Source: Sphingobacteriales bacterium
GTDB taxonomy: Bacteria; Bacteroidota; Bacteroidia; Chitinophagales; JADJOU01
Direction: 5' to 3'
DNA length: 38,169 nucleotides
Assembly: GCA_021297855.1 (NCBI GenBank)
Contig: JAJTHM010000059.1
Location: forward strand, 1-38,169
Below are positions 10,180-12,686 of the stretch, in pieces; position 1 is the first letter of the stretch; the number at the start of each line of letters is the position of its first letter. Both the position numbers and the translations under genes were made by a program. Below the pieces are notes generated by a model. That model was given only the letters and a program-made list of their open reading frames with translations. It searched no databases and was not told the origin of the DNA.

Positions 10180-10806
10180 ATGAAAAAAGCAGAAAAGGTA
10201 GCATATATACAAAACAAACTCGAAGAGCTCTATCCTGAAACCCCTATCCCACTTAATCATACAGATGAATACACCCTTCTGATAGGCGTTTTGCTTTCAG
10301 CCCAATGCACGGACGAACGAGTCAATAAAACGACTCCCTATCTTTTTGATAAGGCTAAAACTCCACATGCTATGGTCAAACTATCTGTGGAGGAAATAGA
10401 GGATATTATTAGACCTTGTGGCCTATCCAAAGCTAAGTCCAATGCAATTTACAACCTCTCACACATCTTGATCGACCAGCATCAAGGAAAAGTTCCTCAG
10501 AGTTTCGAGGCCCTAGAAGCACTGCCTGGAGTAGGACACAAAACTGCCAGTGTGGTTACGAGTCAGGCCTTTGGCATACCGGCTTTTCCGGTAGATACGC
10601 ATATTCACAGACTCGCAACTCGCTGGAAACTGACCAATGGCAAGAATGTAGAACAAACAGAAAAAGACCTCAAACGCCTCTTTCCCGAAAATCTATGGAA
10701 TAAACTTCATCTGCAAATCATCTTCTACGGACGTGAATACTGCCCTGCACGAGGGCACAAAGTGGAGCATTGTATGATATGCAGTGAGATGGGAGCAAAG
10801 GGTTAG
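10180..10806 (+). CDS. nth: Endonuclease III, bifunctional DNA glycosylase/AP lyase
   Basis: 208 residues, near the usual family length. It removes oxidised pyrimidines in base excision repair. The helix-hairpin-helix LPGVGHK and the catalytic pair Lys121 (GHKTAS) and Asp139 (PVDTHIHR) match E. coli Lys120 and Asp138. The C-terminal iron-sulfur motif is altered: Cys188, Cys198 and Cys201 are present, spaced C-X9-C-X2-C, and the fourth Cys of the classic C-X6-C-X2-C-X5-C is missing, because the protein ends shortly after. The last 181 bases (10626-10806) are repeated at 11525-11705. The copies agree to 10741 with one mismatch and then diverge, so the present 3' end may have been exchanged by recombination. 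Confidence 0.93.
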   Translation: MKKAEKVAYIQNKLEELYPETPIPLNHTDEYTLLIGVLLSAQCTDERVNKTTPYLFDKAKTPHAMVKLSVEEIEDIIRPCGLSKAKSNAIYNLSHILIDQHQGKVPQSFEALEALPGVGHKTASVVTSQAFGIPAFPVDTHIHRLATRWKLTNGKNVEQTEKDLKRLFPENLWNKLHLQIIFYGREYCPARGHKVEHCMICSEMGAKG

Positions 10807-10808
10807 CC

Positions 10809-10819
10809 TTGTACTAGTT
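10809..10819. repeat. 11-bp direct repeat, left copy
   Basis: TTGTACTAGTT here, 3 bases after the nth stop codon, is repeated exactly at 11349-11359. The two copies bracket 529 bp that contain the cysteine-rich peptide gene and its promoter. It could mark a cassette edge, or be a chance match in AT-rich DNA. The shared core AACTAGTA (minus strand) also overlaps the peptide gene promoter at 11321-11328. Confidence 0.35.
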
Positions 10820-10921
10820 TATTGTATCTAAAAATATATAGATTCAAAACCATATCATGTCAGCTCTTAGAAGAAACCTTAGTTGATAGGAGCCTATCTC
10901 AGATTTATAAATAATAATAAA

Positions 10922-11224
10922 TTAACCAATAATAATTGTTGAGCACGTTGCAGCACATCCAGCTACGCATGTTATTGAACCATGACACCCCCTTGTGCAC
11001 TCTAGCATGCATTTACCCGCATCCTCTGGCCATCGAGACGGGTTGAGCGCTTTTGTCGATACCGTTCCGTTTTCAGCGATCATTATTTCGGCTATCTCCG
11101 AATGATTATCATTCGGATCAAGCATTACGAGGTGTTTATCGCTTATTACTTTGAAGTTTACCTGTTTGCCAGTGCTTTCAACTGTAGCAGTAATTATCAT
11201 GTTGACTTTTTCTTGATTATTCAT
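10922..11224 (-). CDS. Orphan cysteine-rich peptide, possible peptide natural product or secreted disulfide peptide
   Basis: 100 residues from ATG 11224. All six cysteines lie in the last 29 residues at 72, 76, 80, 86, 90 and 94, giving CX3CX3CX5CX3CX3C, a spacing that reads the same in both directions. The intervening residues are small (G, A, S, T) and the protein ends in STIIIG. Residues 1-70 are charged, Cys-free and without a signal peptide or membrane segment, as expected of a leader; Ala69-Gly70 just before the Cys block could be a cleavage point. The start (NNQEKVNMI) and the VNFKVISDKHLVM stretch faintly recall nitrile-hydratase-like leader peptides, but I cannot claim membership. 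No modification enzyme or exporter lies next to it. Its base composition looks richer in G and C than its surroundings. It has its own promoter and sits between nth and a duplicated nth end. A structural disulfide or metal-binding protein is the main alternative. Confidence 0.65.
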   Translation of the reverse strand: MNNQEKVNMIITATVESTGKQVNFKVISDKHLVMLDPNDNHSEIAEIMIAENGTVSTKALNPSRWPEDAGKCMLECTRGCHGSITCVAGCAATCSTIIIG

Positions 11225-11314
11225 AACTTATATAAAATTTAATATCCTACTCGTATGGCTTTTCAGAATGCGCCCCGTTTTTTAGAGTGGGTTCTGGTCT
11301 CCACTTCCTTACTG

Positions 11315-11322
11315 CAAAGATA
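11315..11322 (-). promoter_or_regulatory. -7 promoter box of the cysteine-rich peptide gene
   Basis: The minus strand reads TATCTTTG followed by C, an exact TAnnTTTG match. Predicted transcription would start near 11308 and leave a leader of about 83 nt to the ATG at 11224, longer than the 20-28 nt leaders elsewhere in the window. The octamer AACTAGTA overlaps the upstream edge of the box (11321-11328) and recurs at 11352-11359, 31 bp away or about three helical turns, which is an operator-like arrangement. Confidence 0.55.
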
Positions 11323-11348
11323 CTAGTTTTTCTTTCACAGCAGGCTTT

Positions 11349-11359
11349 TTGTACTAGTT
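11349..11359. repeat. 11-bp direct repeat, right copy
   Basis: This is an exact copy of TTGTACTAGTT at 10809-10819, in the same orientation. It lies just upstream of the peptide gene promoter and could be a cassette boundary or one half of an operator pair. Confidence 0.35.
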
Positions 11360-11394
11360 ACTGATAAAAGCCCCAAAAGCGATAAGTACATAAT

Positions 11395-11484
11395 TCATTT
11401 TTTAGGTAAGAGCGGTAAATCATCTTCATCAGGAAGAGGAGGCAACTTTTTTGGGTCGTCTAAAGAATTTTTTATGGTCATCAT
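11395..11484 (-). CDS. Possible 29-residue acidic, proline-rich small protein
   Basis: An ORF of 29 codons from ATG 11484 (preceded by an in-frame GTT-ATC-ACC stretch) to TGA at 11395-11397. It begins MMTIKNSLDDPKK and ends LPPLPDEDDLPLLPKK, low in complexity with Pro, Leu, Asp and Lys. It lies on the same strand and upstream of the cysteine-rich peptide gene. The frame stays open further upstream into the nth duplicate, so it could also be the tail of a longer gene cut off by the rearrangement. No ribosome site or homology is visible to confirm it. Confidence 0.3.
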   Translation of the reverse strand: MMTIKNSLDDPKKLPPLPDEDDLPLLPKK

Positions 11485-11503
11485 CTTATTTTTGGTTTGT
11501 TTG

Positions 11504-11519
11504 TTGGTGATAACACCAA
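11504..11519. repeat. Small perfect hairpin next to the nth-duplicate junction
   Basis: TTGGTG (11504-11509) pairs with CACCAA (11514-11519) around a 4-base loop. It ends 5 bases before the point where similarity to nth begins (11525). It may be a boundary feature of the inserted DNA or part of the leader of the small ORF. Confidence 0.35.
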
Positions 11520-11524
11520 AGGGA

Positions 11525-11705
11525 GAAACTGACCAATGGCAAGAATTTAGAACAAACAGAAAAAGACCTCAAACGCCTCTTTCCCGAAAATCTATGGAAT
11601 AAACTTCATCTGCAAATCATCTTCTACGGACGTGAATACTTGCCTGCACGTGGGCATAAGGTGGATAATTGCATAATTTGTAGTCATATCGAAGTGAAAG
11701 GTTAG
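11525..11705 (+). pseudogene. Duplicated 3' fragment of nth
   Basis: This 181-bp stretch aligns to 10626-10806 (the last 60 codons of nth including TAG) without any net gap, at an offset of exactly 899 bases. The first 116 bases differ only at 11547 (G to T), leaving a 93-bp perfect run. After the position equal to 10741 the copies differ at many sites, with both silent and coding changes. The first motif cysteine of the intact gene (Cys188) is Leu here; the later C-X2-C is kept. There is no start codon or upstream part, so it cannot encode an enzyme. It is best read as the displaced or duplicated nth end left by the event that brought in the peptide gene. Confidence 0.88.
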
Positions 11706-11787
11706 CTTTACTATGGTCTGTAGATGGATAAATATTTAAATTCCCCCATGCTGCGAAATGCTATTAAGAATGCCGAGTTCACGACTT

Positions 11788-12591
11788 TTAGACTGCTTTG
11801 CTCGGTGTTGTAGATCCAAATCTATTCTCCTGAATTTGGTCGAATTTAGCTACATATTCGGGATTTTCTGTTTTCATGATTCGATCCCAGAATCTAAAAT
11901 ACAAACCATAGTTTTTATCAAACCTCGTATGATGCAAATTATGATAGATTGATGTATTGAAAATATGAAAAAAGACAGACTGTCTAAACCATTTTGGCAC
12001 TATCTCATACCCTAAGTGCCCATACACATTGATGGCAAAATTGGAGAAAGCAAATAATGCTATAGCGACCGTATGCATGGGTATTAAAACTAAAATAAGT
12101 GGTATAATCAACCCCTCTAATATCGCTTCAAAGAAATGAAACGAGTAGGAAGCCCAAGGAGATGGATTGACAGATTTGTGGTGCACGGAGTGAACCCTTC
12201 GAAATAATTTTGGATGATGTATAGCCCTATGCATCCAATAAAAATAAGTATCATGCACAAAATAAGTTAGGACGACACTCAAAGGAATCCACGCTAGCGG
12301 ATAGTCTGATAAATTGGTATATAGCTGCGTATATTGACTGAGGGGCGTTTTTAGCACCAATACCGCCATAGCTGCCAAAACAAGGGTTGTTTGCATAGAG
12401 TAGGCTATCTCTCTTAAATAATCCTTTTTGCTGGCTAACTGAGCCTGGATTTTACTTTTGGCAAATGCTTTCTTGTAGACTACATAAAAAAGTATAAATG
12501 GTATTCCGCACAGAAAAAAATATCGCACGATACTCAAAATCAAGGGCAAAAAATACTGAAAAATAATAGATTCCATTGCTAGAAAAGTCAT
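11788..12591 (-). CDS. Fatty acid hydroxylase / sterol desaturase family membrane protein
   Basis: 267 residues with four or more hydrophobic segments and the histidine clusters of the di-iron fatty acid hydroxylase superfamily: HDTYFYWMHRAIHH (113-126), HSVHH (134-138), YGH (190-192) and HNLHH (217-221). These place it as an integral inner-membrane oxygenase acting on a lipid, sterol-like or carotenoid-like substrate; the substrate cannot be read from the sequence. The promoter box at 12604-12611 would leave only a few bases of leader to ATG 12591, so the second Met (residue 6, 12576) may be the real start, giving 262 residues. It is transcribed alone, after mltG and before the nth-duplicate region. 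Confidence 0.85.
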   Translation of the reverse strand: MTFLAMESIIFQYFLPLILSIVRYFFLCGIPFILFYVVYKKAFAKSKIQAQLASKKDYLREIAYSMQTTLVLAAMAVLVLKTPLSQYTQLYTNLSDYPLAWIPLSVVLTYFVHDTYFYWMHRAIHHPKLFRRVHSVHHKSVNPSPWASYSFHFFEAILEGLIIPLILVLIPMHTVAIALFAFSNFAINVYGHLGYEIVPKWFRQSVFFHIFNTSIYHNLHHTRFDKNYGLYFRFWDRIMKTENPEYVAKFDQIQENRFGSTTPSKAV

Positions 12592-12603
12592 TTATATACT
12601 AGA

Positions 12604-12611
12604 CAAATATA
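12604..12611 (-). promoter_or_regulatory. -7 promoter box of the hydroxylase gene
   Basis: The minus strand reads TATATTTG, an exact TAnnTTTG match. Its distance suits a start codon at 12576 (about 22 nt leader) better than the one at 12591. Confidence 0.5.
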
Positions 12612-12686
12612 AAAATATTATCCAAGATCGTTTTCTATTTTTAACCCGTATTGATTCCAATTGTATTCTCGGCATTTTTAAAAAAA

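Follow-up and report, generated by a model that had tools for sequence, protein, structure and literature searches.

The 38,169-nucleotide stretch of DNA from a Sphingobacteriales bacterium analysed here (the window) contains a short open reading frame whose predicted product carries six symmetrically spaced cysteines near its C-terminus, raising the questions of whether this is a genuine gene, how its expression is controlled, and what the protein might do.

A six-cysteine protein gene under purifying selection

The reading frame is as follows:

10922-11224, minus strand: ORF of the six-cysteine protein, intact, 100 aa, with an ATG start, a 75%-identical homologue, and dN/dS of 0.11-0.19

Its translation (MNNQEKVNMIITATVESTGKQVNFKVISDKHLVMLDPNDNHSEIAEIMIAENGTVSTKALNPSRWPEDAGKCMLECTRGCHGSITCVAGCAATCSTIIIG) has cysteines at positions 72, 76, 80, 86, 90, and 94, giving the pattern CX3CX3CX5CX3CX3C, with none in residues 1-71 and with Ala69-Gly70 directly preceding Lys71-Cys72. 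A first-pass annotation of this DNA had reported the 100-residue ORF with cysteines at these positions, a cysteine-free first part, and an Ala-Gly before the block, and the translation agrees on each point. Cysteine makes up 0.58% of residues across the 28 other likely genes of the window, in which no 23-residue stretch contains more than three, and a 23-residue stretch with six would be expected 4e-5 times by chance in the protein of those 28 genes. Chance does not hold as an explanation of the block.

Scanning 84,980 species genomes by pattern identified a sole relative, at L002:8001-8303 in a Flavobacteriaceae MAG, with all six cysteines kept and in register. Identity between the two genes at codon positions 1, 2, and 3 is 83, 94, and 61%, respectively, and dN/dS, calculated by three methods, lies between 0.11 and 0.19 depending on the method. 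The concentration of differences at third positions together with the low dN/dS indicates a translated and selected gene, and the six-cysteine protein gene is under purifying selection; an ORF arising by chance is ruled out by the codon-position pattern, the dN/dS, and the conserved leader described below. Residues 1-62 are 69% identical with a dN/dS of 0.22 (NG86), and residues 63-100, which include the cysteine block, are 84% identical with a dN/dS of 0.08 (NG86), showing that both halves of the protein are selected and the cysteine half more strongly. The first-pass annotation had suggested checking whether relatives keep the cysteine spacing while the N-terminal part varies; the single homologue retains the spacing, but its N-terminal part is conserved too.

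No further credible homologues were recovered by profile and sequence searches of 61, 395, 399, and 351 genomes, which are overlapping samples of relatives, the class, the order, and the MAG's own family. Weak genome matches (L003-L014, L141, and L142; E values from 0.004 to 2.7) were all taken as chance, and the three inspected (L004, L007, and L014) are without a comparable cysteine block. No known protein family was recognized: the 100-residue protein has no match to Pfam or NCBIfam up to E = 10, the profile of the cysteine block matches no PDB chain sequence up to the same value, and no six-cysteine protein of this kind was seen in phages, plasmids, or viral contigs.

A DUF805 RNA leads the gene

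Alignment of the regions upstream of the window gene and its homologue revealed a conserved block ahead of the ORF, which corresponds to a structured RNA:

11240-11309, minus strand: DUF805 RNA (RF03081), a structured cis-regulatory leader; Rfam score 78.3 bits, gathering threshold 51.1

The window copy is a full-length member of the family (model positions 1-68), its 3' end lies 15 nt from the ATG of the six-cysteine ORF, and nowhere else in the window does Rfam give a match above gathering. RF03081 belongs to clan CL00115, together with DUF805b (RF02914). The Flavobacteriaceae homologue is also preceded by an RF03081 leader, scoring 72.1 bits against the same threshold. Among 69 aligned RNAs the two helices form standard pairs in 97.9% of cells, with 30 double-sided pair changes against a shuffle mean of 4.2, and such changes are seen at five of the seven helix pairs. 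The window leader is a genuine RF03081 RNA with two covarying helices, and we regard it as almost certain that the ORF is real and is led by a DUF805 RNA.

This RNA is widespread, with RF03081 matches at E <= 1e-6 in 122 of the 395 genomes of the class and up to ten copies per genome. We inspected the genes downstream of about 120 copies and used the first 80 that could be cleanly parsed for spacing; in these the distance from the GAGTAGG motif to the ATG has a median of 20 nt (5th-95th percentile 16-27). Their products vary widely, and 101 of these match 44 Pfam families, with the Por secretion tail in first place (11 proteins), followed by bacteriorhodopsin, DUF805, TM2, and M43 peptidase with two proteins each; the six-cysteine motif is absent from all other surveyed proteins downstream of the RNA. 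The six-cysteine gene is thus one accessory member of a broad DUF805-RNA regulon, and its description as an orphan in the first-pass annotation, which overlooked the leader, has to be abandoned.

Tandem DUF805 RNAs are frequent (L070, L078, L096, L098, and L129), with one ahead of each neighbouring gene, and many copies lie near contig ends, which suggests repeated surroundings. At L020 and L025, in different genomes, similar sequence (MAxQWLNExLC...) lies downstream of unrelated RNA-led ORFs and could be a repeat common to both. A sub-threshold DUF805b RNA also lies ahead of a gene for a DUF805-like membrane protein in the same-genus genome G002 (L137:1526-1557).

No ligand of the DUF805 RNA is reported in the literature searched, which would suit a reading in which the RF03081 match is no more than the remnant of an ordinary leader and expression of the gene is constitutive, without RNA control. 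However, leader and ORF are conserved jointly while their surroundings are not, the leader scores far exceed the curated cut-off in both genomes, and the distance from the RNA to the ATG matches that of scores of other genes, so we consider a remnant very improbable. A transcription start set by a promoter box (TAnnTTTG) at a fixed -7 position immediately ahead of the RNA was dropped, as the box has no consistent position in 89 leaders.

DUF805-type RNAs before proteorhodopsin genes

Several Bacteroidota, two species of the window's genus among them, also carry DUF805 or DUF805b RNAs upstream of proteorhodopsin genes. Among 30 proteorhodopsin loci found independently of the RNA, via PF01036, six have an RNA above gathering upstream: RF03081 at L168:2215-2281, at L169:806-872, and at L158, which is the same genomic site as L119:1630-1699, and DUF805b at L143, L144, and L146. 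Sub-threshold matches occupy the same position at L164, L170, and L156, a match above gathering is absent from 20 of the 30 loci, and there is no match at L172, which was scanned only with the custom model R1. Outside these 30 loci, RNAs above gathering precede proteorhodopsin genes at L118:1609-1677 (RF03081) and at L135 and L136 (RF02914). The end of the RNA lies 11-21 nt from the proteorhodopsin ATG. In the genome from which the window comes, PF01036 gave no match for a proteorhodopsin. The association is not reported in the literature searched, which did not include the motif's original description, reportedly that of Weinberg in 2017. The proteorhodopsin link provides a second, physiologically interpretable target of the DUF805 RNA.

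The leader and ORF occupy a variable site

The surroundings of the gene in the window include the following features:

10180-10806, plus strand: nth, endonuclease III (PF00730), left border of the accessory region
11525-11709, plus strand: nth 3'-end segment, either duplicated or displaced, 89% identical to 10626-10810; marks the right-hand border of the unit
11788-12591, minus strand: fatty-acid hydroxylase/sterol desaturase-like gene (PF04116)

The neighbours of the six-cysteine gene in the window are nth, an ion channel gene, the fatty-acid hydroxylase gene, and the gene for MltG, and those of the homologue are rpsA and genes for a 181-aa protein and a DUF4136 protein; the flanking genes of the two loci are unrelated. 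The DNA common to both is exactly the leader plus the ORF (10916-11306, 78.6% identity over 392 nt), and the restriction of similarity to this segment within unrelated neighbourhoods suggests that the unit was probably moved horizontally. Synonymous divergence points the same way: at fourfold-degenerate sites the peptide genes of the two families are identical at 16 of 33 positions, and nth of the window genome is identical to that of three species of its own genus at 30 of 77, 32 of 77, and 26 of 74. From these sequence comparisons we conclude that the leader and six-cysteine ORF have probably moved together as a unit. No integrase or transposase was seen.

The six-cysteine peptide is absent from the four same-genus genomes searched, and in three same-genus genomes nth is followed directly by mltG, the fatty-acid hydroxylase gene also being missing between them. 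The variable site in the window (10807-12686) comprises the peptide unit, the partial nth copy, and the fatty-acid hydroxylase gene, and it is empty in same-genus genomes. The partial nth copy is open over 63 codons. Over their first ~118 nt it and the other nth 3' end are near-identical, and the final ~65 nt have diverged, as though an inserted segment had brought its own nth end and displaced the old one.

Predicted structure of the protein

The protein divides into two parts:

11039-11224, minus strand: residues 1-62, cysteine-free N-terminal region; five beta strands predicted with low confidence
10925-11035, minus strand: residues 64-100, RWPEDAGKC segment and six-cysteine block; predicted helical hairpin, 84% identity (residues 63-100)

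With two known family members, those in the window and at L002, the alignment available for modelling is shallow. The full-length AlphaFold model built from it is poor (pLDDT 56) and uncertain at the C-terminus, with strands at residues 10-14, 21-26, 31-35, 42-49, and 54-57 (block-mean pLDDT 55-69 over the strands), and a fold search with it gave nothing significant. Residues 62-100 modelled alone form a helical hairpin with helices at 64-77 and 84-99 (pLDDT 83, and 91 over the cysteine region) in which Cys80 belongs to the predicted turn and to neither helix; short isolated peptides tend to come out as helices in modelling. Below E = 10 the block has just three PDB fold matches, to Luffin P1, Ole e 6, and a chain of mitochondrial complex IV, all non-significant (E 6-9) and no more than suggestive. 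The first-pass annotation had proposed two short helices joined by a turn, which is what the block-alone model predicts, whereas the full-length model has strands rather than helices in the cysteine block. We take the block to be a helical hairpin tentatively, and the nested pairs C72-C94, C76-C90, and C80-C86 proposed at the same time are candidates that would fit the geometry of the modelled hairpin.

Proposed function and alternative readings

We propose that the DUF805 RNA leader and its one ORF constitute a self-contained, horizontally moving unit. The RNA most likely controls translation initiation, because its distance from the ATG is short in almost every relative, and would expose or hide the start region upon some signal. 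The product is predicted to have a beta-rich N-terminal domain and a C-terminal helical hairpin, in which three CX3C-spaced cysteines per helix would face each other as three rungs. Since inspection by eye shows no signal peptide in it and it lacks accompanying processing machinery, it would act intact in the cytosol, and not as a cut or enzymatically modified peptide; its facing thiols would either coordinate a soft metal (Zn or Cu(I)) or form a redox-switchable clasp. Our confidence in this scheme as a whole is evenly balanced. For its last element, metal binding or a redox response by the opposed thiols of an intact cytosolic protein, we draw on the conserved cysteines and the apparent cytosolic location, and offer it as a tentative assignment that falls somewhat short of probable.

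The arrangement of the sequence, with all cysteines in the last 29 residues after a cysteine-free stretch and an Ala-Gly, also invites the reading put forward in the first-pass annotation, of a modified core released from a leader. Residues 1-70 would be the leader, an unlinked enzyme of the radical SAM, lanthipeptide, YcaO, or MNIO type would modify the cysteines, and a protease would free a 30-residue core after Ala69-Gly70. Elsewhere in the window genome there are a single SPASM protein and a single C39 domain, but the second genome (G780, a MAG whose completeness is not given) has no match to either, which makes readings that depend on SPASM or a C39 leader peptidase less likely. No modification enzyme or exporter gene lies near the six-cysteine gene at either locus, and the earlier remark that no maturation enzyme is adjacent holds in both genomes. 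The supposed leader belongs to no known leader or precursor family (Pfam and NCBIfam up to E = 10) and is itself conserved and selected (69% identity, dN/dS 0.22), and in the block-alone model the helix at 64-77 spans the proposed cut site. Lanthionines need Ser or Thr partners for their cysteines, and the last 30 residues contain six Ser/Thr in the window protein and four in the homologue, varying and in the homologue fewer than the six cysteines present in both, so a lanthipeptide was rejected. A cut, enzyme-modified core is thus weakly supported and, we believe, quite improbable.

A different view of the same hairpin is that the protein, whole or cut, is exported by a non-Sec route and folds outside the cell as a nested, three-disulfide helical hairpin acting as an antagonistic or signalling peptide. 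The cysteine spacing and predicted fold resemble those of plant alpha-hairpinins and Ole e 6 (PMC7191063, PMC8198727), many genes led by DUF805 RNAs encode secreted or surface proteins (with the Por secretion tail in 11 of 101), and an accessory, horizontally moving distribution would suit a competition trait. The 100-residue sequence, however, is without a signal peptide, lipoprotein box, or Por tail, G780 has no match to a C39 exporter peptidase, and the fold matches are non-significant (E 7-9). We consider export rather unlikely, and favour an intact protein in the cytosol.

The DUF805 RNA is a common yet unexplained control element, above the curated cut-off in 109 of the 395 class genomes, and a compact one-gene unit that travels together with the RNA offers a practical system for finding out what this RNA senses. 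More speculatively, the locus may represent a new, horizontally spreading bacterial family of three-rung cysteine hairpins (CX3CX3CX5CX3CX3C), switched by an RNA that would tie production of a cysteine-rich effector or buffer to the thiol or metal state or to an RNA ligand, although we regard this extension as doubtful.

Comparison with known cysteine-rich systems

The family to which the leader belongs is one of RNAs, not proteins, and its other members lead other genes. Among proteins, the MNIO-modified cysteine-rich precursors (bufferins and chryseobasin) are alike in being small and rich in cysteine, and Buf2 bufferins have six conserved cysteines in 90% of cases (PMC12452194). Bufferin-type MNIO substrates carry Sec signals and adjoin their enzyme genes (PMC12452194). 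The window gene and its homologue, by contrast, show neither the Sec signal nor the adjacent MNIO and partner genes of bufferins, and no hydrophobic N-terminal stretch or signal peptide is seen by eye in the 100-residue protein.

The helical-hairpin cysteine scaffold is known mainly from plants. The alpha-hairpinins, such as Luffin P1 and VhTI, have two antiparallel helices, CX3C motifs, and nested pairing. The window protein has CX3C motifs as well, its block is predicted to form such a helix pair when modelled alone but not in the full-length model, and nested pairing is proposed for it; Luffin P1 is a weak fold match to the block (TM 0.64 to the query, with a non-significant E value). Alpha-hairpinins pair C1-C4 and C2-C3 across their two helices (PMC7191063), and have two cysteines per arm, whereas the window protein has three and a preceding 62-residue domain, is bacterial, and is without a signal peptide or sequence similarity to them. 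Ole e 6 (PDB 1SS3) has six cysteines in about 50 residues, which form two antiparallel helices with a short connecting loop (PMC8198727), and is likewise a weak fold match to the block (TM 0.60 to the query); it differs in being eukaryotic and stand-alone, has no significant structural or sequence match to the window protein, and we claim no homology between them. If the predicted fold is correct, the window protein would extend this known scaffold to a bacterial helical hairpin with six cysteines.
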